NCBI RefSeq assembly: GCF_014654205.1
Contig: NZ_BNAW01000023.1
Span: forward strand, 62,001-126,000
Direction: 5' to 3'
DNA length: 64,000 bases
From: Amycolatopsis bullii
GTDB taxonomy: Bacteria; Actinomycetota; Actinomycetes; Mycobacteriales; Pseudonocardiaceae
A program made the position numbers and the translations under genes. Shown here in pieces: positions 37,939 to 59,705 of the stretch. The notes below the pieces were generated by a model. That model searched no databases. It saw only the letters and a program-made list of their open reading frames with translations, and had not been told where the DNA came from. Every line of letters starts with the position of its first letter. Positions within the stretch are counted from its first letter, which is position 1.

Positions 37939-39720
37939 TTGCCGTACGAACCGCACTGGCCCGACTCGCACGGCGAGCAGACCGACGTCCTCCCGGTCGT
38001 CCGGCCCCAGCCGGAACCGGGTCCCGCCGCGAAGCGCTCCTTCCGCAAGGCCGGCCTGATCGCGGGCGGCGTCTTCGGCGTGCTGGTCGCGATCTACGGG
38101 ATCGACATCCTGATCAGCCAGGGCAGCGTCCCGCGCGGGGTGACCGTCGCCGGCGTCGACGTCGGCGGGATGGGCCGCGAGGCGGCCGAGCAGGAACTGC
38201 GCGGGAAGATCGAGCCGCGGCTCACGCGCCCGCTCGCCGTCACCGCGGGCGAGTACCAGGGCACGCTGGCGCCGACGCTCGCCGGGCTGAAGCTCGACTG
38301 GCCGAAGACCCTCGACCAGGCGGGCGAGCAGCCGCTGAACCCCTTCACGCGCCTGTCTTCGCTGTTCTCCAGCCGCGAGGTCGGCGTCGTCAGCCACGCC
38401 GACAACGCCAAGCTCACCGGCGCGCTGGAGTCGCTGCGCGCCCAGGTCGACCGCGACCCGGTCGAGGGCACGGTGAAGTTCGAGGGCGCCAAGCCGGTCG
38501 CCGTGCCGCCGAAGACCGGGCAGAAGCTCGACGTGCCGGCCGCGACCGCCGCCGTCGTCGAAAAGTGGGCGAGCGGGGAAACGCTGGTGCTGCCGGTGAC
38601 CAGCACGCCGGTCCGCACCACGCCGGAAGCCGTCCAGGCGGCACTCGACGGCTTCGCGCGGCCCGCCGTGTCCGGGCCGCTGCTGATCAAGGGCGACGGC
38701 AAGGTCGCCACCGTGAAGCCGGAGGCGATCGCCGCGGCCATCACCTTCGAACCGGCCGACGGCGGCGGGCTGAACCCGAAGATCGACAACGCGAAGATCG
38801 CCGAAGCCGCCGGGCCGCAGCTGAAGTCCACCGAGAAGGAGGGCAAGGACGCGACCGTCGTCTTCGAAGGCGGCAAGCCCGCGGTCGACCCCTCCACCGA
38901 CGGGCGGACCATCGACTGGGACCCCAGCCTCAAGCCGCTGCCCGACGTGCTGAAGAAGACCGAGGGCCGCGAAGTCCCGGCCGTCTACAAGGACAGCCCG
39001 GCGAAGGTGACCACCGAGCAGGCGAACCAGCTCGGCATCAAGGAAGTCGTCGGCGAGTTCACCACCCAGAAGTTCGCGGCCGACTCCGGCGTGAACATCC
39101 GGGTCGTCGCCCAGAAGGTGAACGGCGCCATCGTCAAGCCCGGGGAAACCTTCAGCCTCAACGGTTTCACCGGCCCGCGCGGCACCGCCCAGGGCTACGT
39201 CGAAGCGGGCGTGATCAAGGACGGCGCCCCCGGACGCGAGGTCGGCGGCGGCATTTCGCAGTTCGCGACCACGCTGTACAACGCGGCCTACTTCGCGGGC
39301 CTGAAGGACGCGGGGCACAAGGAGCACAGCTACTACATCAGCCGCTACCCCGCCGCGCGCGAGGCGACGGTGTTCCAGAACCCCAACGGCTCCAGCGTCA
39401 TCGACCTCAAGTTCACCAACGACTCGCCGACCGGCATCGCGATCCAGACGATCTGGACGCCGTCGTCGATCACCGTGAAGCTGTGGGGCACCAAGCGCTA
39501 CACCGTCGAGTCGATCGAAGGCGCCCAGACCAACCAGAGCGAACCCCCGACCAAGCCGGGGCCCGCCGAGAACTGCCACCCCTCGAACGGCGCGCCGGGG
39601 TTCACCACCAGCAACACCCGCGTGCTCAAGGACGCCGCCACCGGCCGCGAGGTCGGCCGGTCGACCCGGACGGTCCACTACAACCCGCAGCCGAAAATCG
39701 TGTGCGGCGAAGGCCAGTGA
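37939..39720 (+). CDS. VanW-family protein with PG-binding-4 domains
   Basis: A 593-residue membrane-anchored extracytoplasmic protein. Residues about 35-55 form a signal-anchor (AGLIAGGVFGVLVAIYGIDI); two PG_binding_4-like domains follow (VPRGVTVAGVDVGGMGREAA to about residue 350), then a VanW domain (FTTQKFAADSGVNIRVVAQK through EVGGGISQFATTLYNAAYFA). YoaR/VanW proteins are associated with cell-wall L,D- or glycopeptide-related functions, but the biochemistry is unknown. The TTG start at 37939 has a purine-rich GGGGTGGAG just before it. Confidence 0.85.
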   Translation: MPYEPHWPDSHGEQTDVLPVVRPQPEPGPAAKRSFRKAGLIAGGVFGVLVAIYGIDILISQGSVPRGVTVAGVDVGGMGREAAEQELRGKIEPRLTRPLAVTAGEYQGTLAPTLAGLKLDWPKTLDQAGEQPLNPFTRLSSLFSSREVGVVSHADNAKLTGALESLRAQVDRDPVEGTVKFEGAKPVAVPPKTGQKLDVPAATAAVVEKWASGETLVLPVTSTPVRTTPEAVQAALDGFARPAVSGPLLIKGDGKVATVKPEAIAAAITFEPADGGGLNPKIDNAKIAEAAGPQLKSTEKEGKDATVVFEGGKPAVDPSTDGRTIDWDPSLKPLPDVLKKTEGREVPAVYKDSPAKVTTEQANQLGIKEVVGEFTTQKFAADSGVNIRVVAQKVNGAIVKPGETFSLNGFTGPRGTAQGYVEAGVIKDGAPGREVGGGISQFATTLYNAAYFAGLKDAGHKEHSYYISRYPAAREATVFQNPNGSSVIDLKFTNDSPTGIAIQTIWTPSSITVKLWGTKRYTVESIEGAQTNQSEPPTKPGPAENCHPSNGAPGFTTSNTRVLKDAATGREVGRSTRTVHYNPQPKIVCGEGQ

Positions 39721-39771
39721 CCTCCGAACGGACGTTCACCCTGAGCGTCCGCAACGGTACCCTGAGTGCCC

Positions 39772-40971
39772 ATGAAACTGCGCGCGGCAGGCTTCCGGGA
39801 CGTCCTCGCCGTGACCGAGTTCCGGGCGCTGTTCGCGGCCCAGCTGGTTTCGGTCACCGGTGACCAGCTGGCCCGGGTCGCGCTGTCGATCCTGGTCTAC
39901 GACCGGACGAATTCGCCGGGCTGGGCCGCGCTGACCTACGCGCTGACGTTCCTGCCCGACCTCGTCGGCGGGCCGCTGCTGGCCGGGCTCGCCGACCGGC
40001 ACCCGCCGCGGGCGGTGATGGTCCTGTCCGACCTCCTGCGGGCCCTCGCGGTGGCCGTGATGGCGCTGCCCGGGCTCCCGCTGCCGGCCGTCGCGGCGCT
40101 GCTGGTCGGCGTCCAGCTGTTCAACCCGGTCTGGAACTCGGCGCGCGCCGCGCTGCTGCCGCAGGTGCTGCCGGGCGAGACGTTCGTGCCCGGGATGGGC
40201 CTGCTGATGATGCTGGTGCAGGCCGGCCAGGTCGCCGGGTTCGCGCTCGGCGGGCTGCTCGTGGCCGGTCTCGGCACCGGTGGCGCCCTCATGGCGGACG
40301 CGGCGAGCTTCGCGGTGTCGGCCCTGTTCCTGGTCTCCGGGGTCCTGCCGCGGCCGCCGCGGGAAACCTCGGGTGTCCGCTGGTGGCCGCACGTCCGGGC
40401 GGGCTGGACGGTCGTGGCCGGCGACCGGCGGCGGCTCGCCCTGGTGGCGCTGGGGTGCGTCTCGGGGTGCTACATCGCGGGCGAGGCGATCGCCGCCCCG
40501 TACGCCGCCGAGCTCGGCGGGGGCCCGGTGGTCGTCGGGCTGCTGCTCGGGACGTTCGCGCTGGGGAACGTGCTGGGCATGGCCGCGTTGTCGCGGATCC
40601 CGCCCGCGCAGCGGGGCCGGCTGCTGGGGCCGCTCGCGGCGCTGGCGTGCGCGGCTTTGCTCGGCTGCGCGCTGAAACCGGACCTGGTGGCCACTTTGGC
40701 GCTGTTCACGCTGTGCGGAGTGGCCAGTTCGTACAACTTGATCGCGAACACGACGTTCGTGCAGCTCACCCCGGACGCGCAGCGCGCGCAGGCGTTCGGG
40801 TTCGCGTTGACGGCGTTGCGGGTTTCGCAGGGCCTGGGCGTGGTGCTGGCGGGGCTGGCGGCCGAGCGGGCGGCTCCGCACGGCGTCGTCGCGGGTGCGG
40901 GTGCGATCGGCGTGGTGGCGGCGCTCGGGGCGGCCCGGCTGTGGCGGCGGGCGCACCCGGAACCCCGGTGA
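39772..40971 (+). CDS. MFS transporter
   Basis: A 399-residue major facilitator with about 12 predicted membrane helices and MFS loop motifs (VTGDQLARVALSILVYDRTN, GLADRHPPRAVMV with the loop 2-3 DR). It resembles the drug/metabolite efflux MFS_3 group. ATG 39772 is chosen over the upstream GTG 39766. It converges 30 bases from the PTDWT peptide gene; an export role for that product is speculative. Confidence 0.87.
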   Translation: MKLRAAGFRDVLAVTEFRALFAAQLVSVTGDQLARVALSILVYDRTNSPGWAALTYALTFLPDLVGGPLLAGLADRHPPRAVMVLSDLLRALAVAVMALPGLPLPAVAALLVGVQLFNPVWNSARAALLPQVLPGETFVPGMGLLMMLVQAGQVAGFALGGLLVAGLGTGGALMADAASFAVSALFLVSGVLPRPPRETSGVRWWPHVRAGWTVVAGDRRRLALVALGCVSGCYIAGEAIAAPYAAELGGGPVVVGLLLGTFALGNVLGMAALSRIPPAQRGRLLGPLAALACAALLGCALKPDLVATLALFTLCGVASSYNLIANTTFVQLTPDAQRAQAFGFALTALRVSQGLGVVLAGLAAERAAPHGVVAGAGAIGVVAALGAARLWRRAHPEPR

Positions 40972-41001
40972 CCGGCGCGGACGCCGGTCACCGGGACCCG
41001 A

Positions 41002-41259
41002 TCAGGACTGCGTCCAGTCGGTCGGGCACTGCGGCAGCGCTGGCGCGACGCCGGGACGGGTCCAATCGGTCGGCAGCTCGCGCACGGTCCAGTCAGTGGG
41101 CAGTGCGCGGGCGGTCCAGTCGGTCGGCAGCTGCCGCGGGGTCCAGTCGGTCGGGATCGCCCGCGTCCAGTCGGTGGGGAGCTGCCGGGTCCAGTCGGTC
41201 GGCCGCTGCGCGCGGCGGCGGGACGGGACGATGTTGCTGCCGTTCAGGAAGTGCGACAT
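41002..41259 (-). CDS. Peptide with seven PTDWT repeats (candidate multi-core peptide precursor)
   Basis: An 85-residue ORF from ATG 41259, with an AGGAG ribosome site 7 bases upstream. Residues 1-19 (MSHFLNGSNIVPSRRRAQR) form a short, basic N-terminal segment; then PTDWT occurs seven times at residues 20, 28, 36, 45, 54, 63 and 79, spaced 8, 8, 9, 9, 9 and 16. Linkers (RQL, RAI, PRQL, ARAL, VREL, RPGVAPALPQC) vary. In the DNA the motif copies carry four different silent changes (P, T, D, T codons) and no replacement, so the pentapeptide itself is under selection. There is no signal peptide and no maturation enzyme (ATP-grasp, radical SAM, YcaO, lanthionine synthetase) next to it. The layout is like repeated-core modified peptides; I cannot name the class. 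Divergent from a GGDEF gene, convergent with an MFS transporter. Confidence 0.78.
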   Translation of the reverse strand: MSHFLNGSNIVPSRRRAQRPTDWTRQLPTDWTRAIPTDWTPRQLPTDWTARALPTDWTVRELPTDWTRPGVAPALPQCPTDWTQS

Positions 41260-41397
41260 GGTGTTCTCCTGGTTGTGAGGGGAAGTTGCACGGTGCGTGA
41301 TCGGACCGTAGCCTGACCGGCCTAGTGACACACCGCGGTCATTCGATTACAGTGACGATTTCCGCGAAGAGTTCCGTCCTGAACAGAAGGGCGTTTC

Positions 41398-42744
41398 GTG
41401 GGATTGTCCGGGTCCCAAGGGCGAAAGCCCAGCTCAGAACGTCCACGATCAGGTATCCGAACGTGGGCGATGTGGAAGCTGGCCACTCCGGTGTTCGGCT
41501 ACGTCCTCATCGTCGACGCACTGGCGCTGATCGCGGTCCTCTCGACGGCCGCGCTGGTGCCGATCACCACCTCATCGCTGCTCTGGTGTGGACTGATCCT
41601 CGCCGGTGAGGTCGTACACCTCGAGGCGGCGCAACGGATCGAGCGCATCCGCGAGCTGGCCGCCGACGGCCGCCCGCACATGCACCTGCAGTCGATCTGG
41701 ATCTTCGCCGGGCTGCTCCTGCTGCCCCCGCCGCTGGCCACGCTGGTCATCGTCGTCAGTTATGCCCATTCCTGGGTCCGCGTCTACAAACGGCGGGGCG
41801 TGATTCACCGGAAAGTGTTCTCCGGGGCCACGGTAATCCTCGCGTGCACGGCCGCCGGGGCGGTGTTGTGGGCGGGCACCGGGCACGTGGCGCCCTACGT
41901 GCCGTACCTGGACGGTTTCGGCGGGATGCTCGCGCTGCTGACGTCCGGGATCGTCTACTTCGGGCTGAACTACGTGCTGGTGATCGTGGCGATCCTGATG
42001 AGCAACCCGGGAAAGCCGCCGCGGCAGGCGTTCGGCAACCCGTCGGACGTGCTGATCGTGCTGGCGGCGGTCGGCGTCGGCTGCGGGATCGCGCTGGTGA
42101 TGACGGTCCGGCCGTGGCTGCTGCCGGTGCTCATGGTGACGCCGGTGGCGCTGCACATCGGCCTGCTGCTCCCCCAGTTCCAGGCGGCCGCGCGCACGGA
42201 CTCGAAGACGGCGCTGCTCGCGCCGGAGTTCTGGGTCCAGCTGGCCCGCAACGAGCTGGCCCGCGCGGCGGAGTTGTCCTCGACGGCCGGCGTGCTGATG
42301 ATCGACATCGACCACTTCAAGGCCATCGACGACGGCAACGGCCACCTGGCGGGCGACGAGGTGCTGCGCGCGGTCGCGGCGGCGATCCAGGGCTCGGTCC
42401 GCGGCGGCGACTACGTGGGCCGCTTCGGCGGCGACGAGTTCGTGGTGCTGCTCCCGGGCACGACCAGCGCGGAGATCGCGTCCGTCGCGGACCGCATCCG
42501 CACGGCGATCGCCCGGATCGAGGTGCCGGTCCCGGTGGTCCGCCCGGGCAAGCCCGAGGTGATCAGCGGCCTGACGGCCTCGATCGGCGCGGCGGTGTAC
42601 CCGGAAACGGCCACGGAGTACACGATCCTGCTGCAGGCGGCGGACGACGCCGTGTTCGAGGCCAAGGCGGGCGGCCGCGACCGTGTGGTCCTGGCGACCG
42701 CCCGCACCGAGCTCACCCGCCCGGAAATCCCCGACGCGCTCTGA
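41398..42744 (+). CDS. Membrane-bound diguanylate cyclase (GGDEF)
   Basis: A 448-residue c-di-GMP synthase. Residues about 28-265 hold a 6-7-helix membrane sensor module of the actinobacterial type (VFGYVLIVDALALIAVLST, IFAGLLLLPPPLATLVIVVS). The GGDEF domain follows with an intact active site RFGGDEFVVLLPG and an intact inhibitory I-site RGGD five residues before it, so the enzyme should be active and product-inhibited. No EAL domain. GTG 41398; a downstream start is possible. Two bases short of touching the convergent trpB2. Confidence 0.9.
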   Translation: MGLSGSQGRKPSSERPRSGIRTWAMWKLATPVFGYVLIVDALALIAVLSTAALVPITTSSLLWCGLILAGEVVHLEAAQRIERIRELAADGRPHMHLQSIWIFAGLLLLPPPLATLVIVVSYAHSWVRVYKRRGVIHRKVFSGATVILACTAAGAVLWAGTGHVAPYVPYLDGFGGMLALLTSGIVYFGLNYVLVIVAILMSNPGKPPRQAFGNPSDVLIVLAAVGVGCGIALVMTVRPWLLPVLMVTPVALHIGLLLPQFQAAARTDSKTALLAPEFWVQLARNELARAAELSSTAGVLMIDIDHFKAIDDGNGHLAGDEVLRAVAAAIQGSVRGGDYVGRFGGDEFVVLLPGTTSAEIASVADRIRTAIARIEVPVPVVRPGKPEVISGLTASIGAAVYPETATEYTILLQAADDAVFEAKAGGRDRVVLATARTELTRPEIPDAL

Positions 42745-42747
42745 CGG

Positions 42748-44100
42748 CTAGGGCAGCGTCGCCAGCGATTTCTCGAGGGCCGCGTCGGACAGTTCGTCGT
42801 CCACCATGTCGCCGGCGAGGTAGGCGCCGTACGCCGGCAGATCCAGGTGGGCGTGGCCGCACAACGCCGTGAGGATCACCTTCTCCTCGCCGGTTTCCTT
42901 GCACCGCAACGCTTCCTGGATGCACGCCGCGAGTGCGTGGGTCGGCTCGGGTGCCGGGATGATGCCTTCGGACCGGGCGAACCGCACCCCCGCCGCGAAA
43001 CACTCCTGCTGCCCGATGGCGATCGCCTCGATCAGGCCGAGCTCGTAGATGTGCGAAATCAGCGGGGACATCCCGTGGTACCGCAGCCCGCCCGCGTGGA
43101 TCGGGTCCGGGATGAACTCGTGGCCGAGCGTGTGCATCTTGAGCAGCGGCGTGAGCCCGGCCGTGTCGCCGAAGTCGTAGGCGTACCTGCCACGCGTCAG
43201 CGACGGGCACGCGGCCGGCTCGACCGCGCGGATCACCGGGTCCATCCGGCCGGCCAGCTTCTCGCGCAGGAACGGGAAAGCGAGCCCGCCGAAGTTCGAG
43301 CCGCCGCCGGTGCAGCCGACCAGGACGTCCGGCGTGTCGCCGGCCAGCTCGAACTGCTTGAGCGCTTCCTCGCCGATCACCGTCTGGTGCAGCAGCACGT
43401 GGTTGAGCACGCTGCCCAGCGCGTACCGCGCGTCCGGGTCCTGCGCCGCCTGCTCGACGGCTTCGCTGATGGCGATGCCGAGACTGCCGGTCGAATCCGG
43501 GTGCTGCTTGAGGATCGCGCGGCCGGACTCGGTCAGTTCGGACGGGCTCGGGTGGACGGTCGCGCCGAACGTCTCCATCATCAGCTTGCGGTAGGGCTTC
43601 TGGTCGTAGGACGCGCGGACCTGCCAGACCTCGCACTCCAGCCCGTACTGGGCGCAGGCGAAGGCGAGCGCGCTCCCCCACTGGCCGGCGCCGGTCTCGG
43701 TGGTCAGCCGCGTGACGCCCTCGGCCGCGTTGTAGAACGCCTGCGGCACGGCGGTGTTCGGCTTGTGGGACCCGACCGGGCTGACGCCCTCGTACTTGTA
43801 GTAGATCCGCGCGGGGGTGCCCAGCGCCTTCTCCAGCCGTCGCGCCCGGAACAGCGGCGACGGGCGCCAGAGCCGGTAGACCTCCCGCACCTCCTCCGGG
43901 ATGTCGACATAGCGATCAGTCGTCACTTCCTGGGCGATGAGCGCCTGCGGGAACAGCGGCGCGAGGTCGTCCGGGCCGACGGGCTCGCGCGTGCCGGGGT
44001 GCAACGGCGGTGGCGGCGGCTCGGGCAGGTCGGGGATGACGTTGTACCACTGGGTGGGGAGGTCTTTTTCGTCCAGGACGTACTTGGTCTGCTCAGCCAT
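42748..44100 (-). CDS. trpB2: TrpB-like PLP enzyme (TrpB2)
   Basis: A 450-residue tryptophan synthase beta-subunit of the TrpB2 type, which condenses serine (or phosphoserine) with indole without obligatory TrpA. The PLP lysine is K113 in GSHKPNT; a [11 protein letters not shown] phosphate-binding loop and the N-terminal extension ([15 protein letters not shown]) define type 2. ATG 44100 follows AGGAGG. It stands alone; link to the tryptophan catabolic genes at 3-10 kb is not implied by proximity. Confidence 0.93.
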
Positions 44101-56697: not shown

Positions 56698-57881
56698 CCG
56701 ATCGGCATCGACCGCGGTCCGCGGACGAGCATCTGCGTCTTCCACACGATATCGCCGGCGAGGTGCAACCCCGGCATTTCGGTGACCAACGCGCGCAGCG
56801 CCTCCTGCAGCTCGAGCCGCGCCAGCGGCGCGCCGAGGCAGTGGTGGACGCCGTGGCCGAAGCCCAGGTGCTGGTTCTCCTCGCGGTCGAACCGCAGCTT
56901 GTCCGCGTCACCGAACCGGAGGCCGTCGCGGTTGGCCGCGCCGATGGCCACGAGCACCGGTTCACCCGCCCGGACGAGCACGCCGCCGACCTCGACGTCT
57001 TCGGTGGCGTAGCGGGCGAATCCCGCGCCGGCGCCGAGCGGCACGAACCGCAGCAGTTCCTCGACCGCGGCCGGGATCAGGTCGGGGTCGGCGCACAGCC
57101 GCTCCCACTGCTCGTGCTGGTCCAGCAGCGCGTAGACGAAGTTCGGGATCTGGCTCGCGGTGGTCTCGTGCCCGGCGACGAGGATGCCGACGCACAGGTC
57201 GACCAGCTCCAGCTCGGTCAGCCGGTCGCGGACGTCGCGGGCCTCGATCAGCGCCGTCATCAGGTCGTCGGCCGGCCGCTCGCGGTGCTCGGCGATCAGG
57301 CCGCGCATGTAGTCGCGCAGCTCTTCGCGGTTGCGCTCGAACTCCTCGGGCGTCAGCCCGCTCGTGGACAGCGCCGCGTCGCTCCACACGCGGAACTTCG
57401 GCCGGTCGGCGACCGGGACGCCGAGCAGCTCGCAGATCACCGCGACCGGGATCGGCAACGCGTAGGCGTCGACCAGGTCGGCGGGCGCCCCGGCCGCCTT
57501 CATGTCCGCGATCAGCTCGGAGGCCAGCGACGCGACGCGCGGCCGGAGCAGCTCGACGCGGCGCATGGTGAACGCCTTGGCGACCAGGGTCCGCAGCCGC
57601 GTGTGGTCCGGCGGGTCCATCTGCAGGATCCCGCCATCGCGCACCACCGGCGAGCGCCGCGGGGCGTCCTTTTCCTTCTCCATCGCCCGCGAGAACCGGC
57701 GATCGCCCAGCACCAGCCGGGCGTCGGCGTACCGGGTGGCCAGCCAGGCCGGCTCCCCGTAGGTCATCTTCACCCGGACCATGCCCTCGGCGTCCCGCGC
57801 GGCCGCGTACGCCTCGTTCAGGTCGAGCCCGGCCTCCTCGTTGAAGGGGTACGCGAGCGGTTCGGTGTGGGTGGTGGTCAT
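56691..57881 (-). CDS. Cytochrome P450, pair 1
   Basis: A 396-residue class I P450. I-helix AGHETTASQIPN, EXXR-containing K-helix (AAVEELLRFVP), the heme pocket FGHGVHHCLGAPLARLE with the axial Cys. Related to CYP105/107-like actinobacterial P450s; substrate unknown. ATG 57881. It is downstream of a 20-bp perfect palindrome (57900-57919) and co-transcribed with the ferredoxin at 56473. Confidence 0.93.
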   Translation of the reverse strand: MTTTHTEPLAYPFNEEAGLDLNEAYAAARDAEGMVRVKMTYGEPAWLATRYADARLVLGDRRFSRAMEKEKDAPRRSPVVRDGGILQMDPPDHTRLRTLVAKAFTMRRVELLRPRVASLASELIADMKAAGAPADLVDAYALPIPVAVICELLGVPVADRPKFRVWSDAALSTSGLTPEEFERNREELRDYMRGLIAEHRERPADDLMTALIEARDVRDRLTELELVDLCVGILVAGHETTASQIPNFVYALLDQHEQWERLCADPDLIPAAVEELLRFVPLGAGAGFARYATEDVEVGGVLVRAGEPVLVAIGAANRDGLRFGDADKLRFDREENQHLGFGHGVHHCLGAPLARLELQEALRALVTEMPGLHLAGDIVWKTQMLVRGPRSMPIGW

Positions 57882-58503: not shown

Positions 58504-59705
58504 CCACCACCGAAGAGACGCCTCGCCTCCCCTTCGCCCGCGCGGACGCGCTCGCCATCGCCCCGGACTACGCGGTCCTCCGCCGGCAGGCGCCGATCAG
58601 CCGCGTGCTCACCCCGGCCGGCGACCCGGCCTGGCTGGTGACCTCCTACGAAGAGGCCAAGGAAGTCTTCCGCGACAAGCGCTTCGGCCGCTCGCACCCG
58701 GCGCCGGAACAGGCGTCGCGGATCTCCTACGCCGCCGTCCAGGACGGCCCGAGCGGCGACTTCGAGAACGAGGAGCGCGAGCACAAGCGGATGCGCCGGA
58801 TGCTGGCGCCCGCCTTCTCCGCGCCTCGCATGCGCGCCCTCGGCGACCGCATCGCCGAACTGACCGACCGCTGCCTCGACGACATGGAAGCGGCCCGCGA
58901 AAATGGGCCCGTCGACCTGACCGACTTCCTCGCCTTCCCGCTGCCGGTGCTGGTGATCTGCGAACTCCTCGGGGTGCCGTACGCCGACCGGGAGCACTTC
59001 CGCGGGCTGTCCGAGCGGATCGCGGTGATGAACGGCGGCGAAGACGCCCAGGCCGCCATGGCGGAATTCATGGCGTACATGACGAAGCTGGCCGACGCCA
59101 AGCGCGCGGACCCGCAGCCCGACGTCATCTCCGACCTGGTCGCCTTCCAGGCCGAAGACCCGACCTTCACCGGCGAGGACCTCGCGCGGATGGGTGCCGG
59201 CCTGTTGTTCGCCGGCCACGAGACGACGTCGACGCGCATCGCGATGGGCACGCTGTTCCTGCTCGCCGACACCGCCCGCCGCGACCGCTTCGCCGCCGAC
59301 CCCGATGGCCAGGTGAACCAGACCGTCGAGGAGATCCTGCGGCTGACCGCGACCAGCGGCACCGGCCTGCTCCGGTACGCCCACGAAGACGTCGAGATCG
59401 CCGGGACGCGGATCATGCGCGGCGACGCCGTGCTCATCTCCAGCGACGCGGCCAACCGGGACGCGTCGGTGTTCGCCGACCCGGACGGGTTCGATCCGGA
59501 CCGGACGCCGAACGTGCACCTCGCCTTCGGCACCGGCGCCCACGTCTGCATCGGCGCCAACCTCGCCCGCACCGAGCTGCGGACGGTGTTCCCGAAGCTG
59601 TTCCGCCGCTTCCCCGGCCTGCGCCTGGCCGTCGGGATCGACGAGATTCCGGTGCGCACCAACCGCGTCGCCGGTGGGGTCGAGCGCGTCCCCGTGGAGT
59701 GGTGA
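58500..59705 (+). CDS. Cytochrome P450, pair 2
   Basis: A 401-residue class I P450: I-helix [14 protein letters not shown]-helix TVEEILRLT, heme pocket [20 protein letters not shown]105-like overall layout. Substrate unknown. ATG 58500 in the padR stop. The ferredoxin follows 4 bases after its stop. Confidence 0.93.

Follow-up and report, generated by a model that had tools for sequence, protein, structure and literature searches.

Polymorphic peptide pheromone/receptor systems are known from Gram-positive bacteria, among them ComQXPA, Agr and ComCDE, and the yeast alpha-factor is made as a multi-core propeptide whose repeated cores have basic residues between them. In actinomycetes, cyclic di-GMP (c-di-GMP) regulates development and antibiotic production; for many membrane GGDEF sensors, to our knowledge, no ligand has been identified. 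Here we analyze a stretch of 64,000 nucleotides from Amycolatopsis bullii (contig NZ_BNAW01000023.1, positions 62,001 to 126,000; hereafter the window), which contains a micropeptide gene encoding seven copies of the word PTDWT and located divergent to a gene for a membrane GGDEF protein. Comparison of sequences leads us to favor, with modest confidence, that the multi-copy word is a dedicated ligand, probably secreted, for the membrane sensor domain of this putative diguanylate cyclase.

As in the Com and Agr systems, a short ribosomal peptide is encoded beside a multi-pass membrane protein, and across related species the divergence of the peptide goes with that of the sensor domain but not with that of the output domain. 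The linkage of a peptide gene to a multi-pass membrane signaling protein, which characterizes pheromone/receptor systems, is found here. However, all 38 of 38 aligned partner proteins are of the GGDEF type and not histidine kinases, and the locus was therefore not assigned to Agr or Com. It also differs in that the words, which would be secreted, are repeated in-frame or distributed in arrays of stand-alone open reading frames (ORFs) of 6-8 amino acids. No dedicated processing enzyme was seen among five scanned genes flanking the peptide gene in the window; a homologue of the adjoining major facilitator superfamily (MFS) transporter is found in 86 of the 119 related regions with enough flank. 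The alpha-factor shares the repeated cores separated by basic residues, at which cleavage may occur here; unlike it, the peptide shows no secretion signal and also exists in the separate micro-ORF form. The multi-pass N-terminal membrane domain preceding GGDEF is like that of MASE-type sensors, although a MASE9 match at E<=0.01 was obtained for only three of the 38 and not for the window protein (E 0.15).

According to the available part of a review on c-di-GMP sensing (PMC8846402), the receptors of autoinducer-2 (AI-2) and the Burkholderia diffusible signal factor (BDSF) are direct quorum-signal cases, and peptides are mentioned once in that part, as possible ligands of PBP-clan domains. The arrangement proposed here is similar in that a cell-cell signal would be read by a c-di-GMP enzyme; however, AI-2 and BDSF are small molecules, which are sensed by dCACHE or PAS domains, whereas the candidate signal here is a ribosomal peptide and its candidate reader an unassigned membrane domain. 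The closest case of ultra-short, sometimes multi-copy precursor genes is that of the biarylitides, whose precursors, in the available part of their description (PMC13417212), have five residues (18 bp), reach six copies in one strain and include Trp variants. Biarylitides are defined in that text by a P450 that crosslinks aromatic residues, whereas no P450 adjoins the window peptide gene and the words lack the Tyr-based motifs of biarylitides. As in the first-pass annotation, which recognized no described family with this motif, no description of the peptide-GGDEF family was found in the open-licence literature, where absence is not absence in print. Apparently, neither arrays of stand-alone genes of 6-8 amino acids without a modifying enzyme nor the pairing of peptide and GGDEF protein has a described counterpart; if the pheromone proposal holds, the principle of peptide plus receptor is itself already known.

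The micropeptide gene is located at 41002..41259 on the minus strand, with the ATG at 41259 and the stop codon ending at 41002, and its ORF translates into 85 amino acids: the N-terminal sequence MSHFLNGSNIVPSRRRAQR followed by seven exact PTDWT words starting at residues 20, 28, 36, 45, 54, 63 and 79. On the minus strand, copies 1 to 7 correspond to 41188..41202, 41164..41178, 41140..41154, 41113..41127, 41086..41100, 41059..41073 and 41011..41025, and a ribosome site, AGGAG, lies 6 bases 5' of the ATG (41266..41270). The first-pass annotation had described this ORF, its seven words, the ribosome site and the silent differences among the seven DNA copies, all of which were confirmed. The ATG start is further supported because the frame 5' of it varies among orthologues, and the G+C content by codon position (0.62/0.66/0.94) matches that of coding genes of the host genome. 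The ORF has zero matches in Pfam and NCBIfam, and a search of its own genome with the peptide showed no second significant match.

A two-copy DNA pattern (PTDWT..PTDW) matched 34 of 390 genomes of the family, against 0/390 for the reversed pattern. The pair is found at the GGDEF locus in 33 of these genomes; the remaining one, G272, has a stray match elsewhere. At the protein level, 32 of 80 genomes of the genus matched at E <= 0.001, one of which (G063) was discarded and not counted as a homologue since its match is weak (E 5e-4, 35%). In a further four genomes, each with a close orthologue of the GGDEF protein, the divergent slot holds very short PTDW forms: MNTTFPRTGRPTDWTRRTQRPTDWTRF (L056), MSKKSCSPRTGRPTDWARSSQRPTDWARS (L096), MIKTSSSPRTGRPTDWSRPTDWSRF (L097) and a near twin (L098). 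A PTDW peptide, with 2 to 10 copies, is found in the divergent slot of 35 of 35 GGDEF orthologues of the genus (>=60% identity).

The 32 orthologous ORFs with at least four copies (two-copy forms excluded) contain 242 Trp contexts: 226 are PTDWT, 11 PTDWA, four PTDWS and one PTEWA. Damaged copies are also present in orthologue translations, with Trp replaced by Gly in L019 and by Arg in L025, and one shortened by a stop in L014. Ten orthologues of equal length differ from the window by 40 silent and 0 replacing changes in the motif codons, and by 48 silent and 85 replacing changes in the non-motif codons of the same ORFs, these counts being pairwise sums and not independent events. Little except the words is kept in the diverged members L031, L032 and L064. 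On these comparisons, the word is the conserved unit of the peptide gene. The statement of the first-pass annotation that the motif shows no replacement stands among the window copies and the ten equal-length orthologues; taken as a strict rule, it has the variant and Trp-less copies elsewhere against it, although a very strong constraint remains. Its interpretation as selection on the peptide word, and not recent DNA duplication, is supported.

A three-copy PTDWT DNA pattern, which leaves out the two-copy forms, was found at 19 loci of the genome contigs, 17 of them from Amycolatopsis. In an archaeal metagenome-assembled genome of Natronomonas (L119, 2802-2854, minus strand) the DNA repeat reads PTDWT in changing frames, so that there is no peptide repeat. 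Saccharibacillus kuerlensis (L123, 3174-3224, plus strand) shows a repeated EPTDWTVP linker inside an open frame of 328 residues, which was judged unrelated, a chance or low-complexity likeness.

Covariation between the word and the partner protein was analyzed at the orthologous locus of genus g25, where 22 of 23 loci were usable (L205 was left out since no complete GGDEF ORF was extracted) and fall into four word classes: STDWTF (8), RPNDW (7), RPTDW (5) and RPNEW (2). Three further loci, in which no MFS gene was found, were omitted from the MFS part (19 of 22). The mean protein distance of the membrane domain was 0.101 within word classes versus 0.264 between them, compared to 0.117 versus 0.139 for the catalytic domain and 0.234 versus 0.262 for the MFS protein. 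Partial Mantel tests by permutation, which with four word classes per test do not separate exchange of linked cassettes from stepwise co-evolution, gave r = 0.865 (p = 0.0002) for word and membrane domain given the catalytic domain, and r = -0.57 (p = 1) for the reverse test. Given the catalytic domain, the corresponding values were r = -0.003 (p = 0.49) for the MFS protein and r = 0.097 (p = 0.096) for its C-terminal part, which adjoins the peptide gene. Between g25 pairs with a catalytic distance below 0.08, the membrane distance was 0.063 when the word is the same (17 pairs) and 0.240 when it is different (10 pairs). Along the GGDEF protein, the word effect extends from about residue 31 to 238. 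Residues 1-30, the closest to the peptide gene, show no effect (0.083 versus 0.093), and as pure linkage would be expected to affect them, this counts against linkage alone.

A class-wide search with the membrane domain matched 20 of 296 genomes, in 5 of 106 genera, and led to a second family (f19), possibly Micromonosporaceae. In this family, 11 of 18 loci were compared, omitting six paralogues (L243-L248) and L241, where no word was found by script; word classes were set by hand, and the label of L238 was borrowed from L179 of the same genome. Membrane distances were 0.225 with the same word and 0.368 with different words, versus 0.228 and 0.293 for the catalytic domain, and the partial Mantel test gave r = 0.681 (p = 0.0007) and, in reverse, r = -0.28 (p = 0.97). 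Judged by these distances, changes of the word go along with changes of the GGDEF protein's membrane domain, and hardly with those of its catalytic domain or of the MFS protein.

The gene order MFS, peptide, GGDEF is constant in orthologues whose contig extends far enough, and the same slot and strand beside distant GGDEF homologues of the genus contain GNEWTR repeats (L103: MRNAPGNEWTRSRGNEWIRFQGNEWTRRGNEWGRGNEWTR), a single PTEWNR (L099-L101), tandem ORFs of the type MRNNTWRRNNTWS (L108) or MRDDVNWTR (L109). No clear Trp peptide was seen in the slot of L107; at L107 and L166, the slot beside GGDEF and MFS shows only a six-residue MNGRED frame. GGDEF homologues (E <= 1e-60) are found in 281 of 386 genomes and 28 of 46 genera of the family. 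In 40 of their upstream regions, hand-picked across genera, the words were RPTDW, RPNDW, RPNEW, RPSEW, RPADW, GNEW, SNNW, DSNW, GSEWH, STDWTF, RNKSW, RTNEIW and others. At L138, the GRPSEWRRVGRPSEWR words are in a different frame from the expected start, which points to a shift or a sequencing error. Across these regions, the word varies whereas its position next to the GGDEF gene is kept.

In f19, the slot mostly contains arrays of separate micro-ORFs, such as MRDNTWT in eight copies (L171), MRDTTW[SR] in 13 (L177) and [MV]RGNSWD in five (L182), in addition to a single MRDNNWT at L180. The first family also has this form: L147 shows 16 copies of [MV]RNKSW, with an extra His in the first. Each micro-ORF of the arrays has its own purine-rich ribosome site, ATG and GTG starts alternate, codons vary silently and spacers vary. 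The peptide is constant in most arrays, and in L237, L239 and L242 it varies around a retained Trp. In the window's own genome, GGDEF relatives show Trp-less micro-ORFs, [MV]RNRES in seven copies (L187) and MSNRDG plus MSNRDC (L190/L229), and no micro-ORF was found beside its GGDEF relatives L185, L186, L188 and L189. The seven-copy [MV]RNRES array is found at L187 and also at L167, beside GGDEF relatives. The dose of the word is thus raised through two DNA architectures, repetition in-frame and multiplication of micro-ORFs. The repeated-core idea of the first-pass annotation is thus supported, because elsewhere the slot holds one word in 7-9 amino acids, many in-frame words or many micro-ORFs.

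Linkage of words to GGDEF genes was controlled by counting words in ORFs preceded by a Shine-Dalgarno (SD) sequence in 120 distinct GGDEF-upstream regions, which are mutually related and some of which had been inspected before the count. An identical four-residue Trp word was found at least twice in 97/120 regions on the divergent strand, in 9/120 on the opposite strand and in 3/600 dinucleotide shuffles; for at least three times, the numbers were 75, 4 and 0. Seven of the nine opposite-strand words are SRW words, read as an alternative frame of the same repeats. When the 30 close orthologues that belong to the genus of the window are set aside, 67/90 divergent and 5/90 opposite strands show a Trp word at least twice. 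Arrays of SD-preceded micro-ORFs sharing residues 2-5 were found on 17 divergent and 0 opposite strands, and in 0/600 shuffles. The top word of L178 in the Trp-word count and the L175 set in the array count are by-products of DNA repeats. A paired MRD[NT]TW pattern was found in 7/296 genomes of the class, and all seven adjoin a GGDEF homologue.

The divergent gene (41398..42744, plus strand) encodes a membrane GGDEF protein of 448 amino acids (Pfam GGDEF, 1.8e-35), the candidate cognate receptor. The first-pass annotation had correctly described a convergent MFS gene and a divergent membrane GGDEF gene; it took the latter as an unrelated neighbor, whereas our analysis points to it as the key partner. 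The membrane domain that tracks the peptide word in related loci comprises about residues 31-238 (41488..42111, plus strand), boundaries transferred from the g25 alignment, and the catalytic GGDEF domain comprises residues 266-429 (42193..42684, plus strand) according to Pfam, alignment and fold match. All 38 aligned members have the Pfam GGDEF match, and the residues assigned to the GGDEF active site and to the RxxD I-site do not vary in 38/38. The model matches solved GGDEF domain structures in a fold search, and the AlphaFold2 (AF2) mean predicted local distance difference test (pLDDT) was 88.1 for the whole protein and 87.9 for its membrane part. The intact active site leads us to predict diguanylate cyclase activity. 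Charge counts fit a topology with six membrane helices and a re-entrant hairpin, both ends being inside. Positions that track the word (mutual information >= 1.1) are 16/82 in the outer half, 8/117 in the inner half, 3/30 in the hairpin and 1/173 in the catalytic domain, and the outer-half excess is a hint, and only that, at sensing from outside. In the numbering of the window GGDEF protein, residues 40, 44, 59, 60, 155, 158, 159, 166, 182, 205 and 231 track the word. Foldseek with the membrane domain found nothing at E <= 0.001; weak top matches include S-components of energy-coupling factor (ECF) transporters (best E 0.62), which are a lead only.

If the word is a secreted ligand of this sensor, translation would give ready peptides of 6-9 amino acids or a repeat precursor, and long precursors would be cut into short peptides, often beside Arg flanking the words. 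The peptides might leave the cell via the MFS transporter (39766..40971, plus strand), which is convergent with the peptide gene and a candidate exporter, or by another route. The cognate cyclase would then be bound at its membrane domain, probably from outside, and the bound peptide, a signal among kin or within the population, would alter c-di-GMP synthesis. Parallel channels would operate in genomes that have several words.

Several observations weigh against this reading. No signal peptide was seen on the window peptide, and 33/119 related loci have no MFS homologue. The outer half of the membrane domain is also more variable, which may alone explain its excess of word-tracking positions. 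Between pairs with the same and with different words, distances in the last two MFS windows increase from 0.339 to 0.458 and from 0.458 to 0.558, and at fourfold sites the membrane domain also shows divergence by word, from 0.236 to 0.365, compared to 0.205 to 0.208 in the catalytic domain. Because both the MFS end and the fourfold sites differ by word, exchange of peptide and sensor cassettes is likely part of the covariation. In the most distant g25 pairs (catalytic distance 0.16-0.3) the effect is small, with membrane distances of 0.249 for the same word (9 pairs) and 0.294 for different words (49). Furthermore, array words such as RNRES and SNRD lack Trp, no clear Trp peptide was seen in the slot of L102, and no peptide was found beside the GGDEF homologues L142, L143, L159 and L176, given as examples.

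Some of these points also fit a peptide that is never secreted, many copies of which would control the activity of the cyclase by binding, on the cytosolic side, to its membrane domain or to a complex that surrounds it. The covariation of word and membrane domain is what such an intracellular regulator would show too, and the unseen signal peptide, the loci without MFS homologue and the inner-half positions that also track the word speak for it. We nevertheless consider it unlikely, since a secreted, specificity-coded signal would more readily account for a word that differs from one related species to another and for genomes with several words; more of the tracking positions are in the outer half, with the reservation on variability given above.

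The first-pass annotation had proposed chemically modified cores. As a precursor of a ribosomally synthesized and post-translationally modified peptide (RiPP), the words would be cores of a product carrying, for example, a Trp crosslink, made by an enzyme from another part of the genome and exported by the MFS protein, with the GGDEF protein as a linked regulator. Repeated cores and ultra-short precursor genes are indeed known among RiPPs, as in the biarylitides cited above. However, a scan of five genes flanking the peptide gene in the window, which did not extend to the flanks of all related loci, showed no modifying enzyme; the first-pass annotation had likewise noted none adjacent, and the gene was for this reason not classified as a RiPP precursor. 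The nearest P450 of the genome is about 15.5 kb from the peptide gene, and the P450 matches on the window contig are at about 56787-57347 (minus strand) and 59313-59612 (plus strand). Furthermore, the word covaries with a sensor domain, and its residue types differ between clades, some words being without Trp. Modification of the cores is thus unsupported, and a RiPP origin appears improbable.

Still less probable is a toxin-immunity pair, in which the peptides would be small bacteriocins and the membrane domain would confer immunity to the cognate word. Dose amplification, joint change of word and membrane protein and a transporter beside most copies would suit it; however, killing is not to be expected of words that have 4-7 mostly polar residues, and immunity would not require a complete GGDEF protein whose site residues are intact. 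Finally, tandem SD-ORF units that serve as an RNA sponge or act via the ribosome, with an inert peptide, would account for short ORF repeats with regular spacing, and this can be set aside with little hesitation given the silent-only word changes, the ATG/GTG alternation, the same kind of word in two DNA architectures, 0 Rfam matches in 40900-41500 of the window and no adjoining same-strand downstream gene there.

Two further candidates were rejected. A Trp attenuator leader was ruled out since no same-strand gene directly follows the peptide ORF, whose Trp codons are dispersed, and since the GGDEF gene separates it from the TrpB-like gene. A c-di-GMP-binding RxxD peptide was ruled out since many words have no Arg three residues before Asp: RxxD is present in RPTDW and RPNDW and absent from most window copies (e.g. 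RQLPTDWT) and from STDWTF and NKSW words. The TrpB-like gene (42748-44100, minus strand; NCBIfam NF009057, 741 bits) encodes a pyridoxal phosphate (PLP) enzyme and is convergent with the GGDEF gene. Upstream of the MFS gene, a domain match identifies a VanW-domain protein (37939-39720, plus strand), and part of its gene is visible in many close orthologous loci.

Specialists may be surprised by up to 16 separate genes of 6-8 residues with their own ribosome sites, far under the usual annotation size, and by a peptide word that tracks the membrane domain of the adjoining GGDEF protein. With a candidate ligand written beside each receptor and many natural word/receptor pairs, the proposal is directly testable with synthetic peptides. 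More tentatively, and a little short of what we would call probable, these loci may represent a large, unrecognized class of bacterial cell-cell signals, in which ribosomal peptides of 4-7 residues, encoded as in-frame repeats or micro-ORF arrays, act on cognate sensor-cyclases; species would exchange word and sensor as a unit, and one genome would run several channels in parallel. If true, ribosomal peptide signaling would be joined to c-di-GMP.
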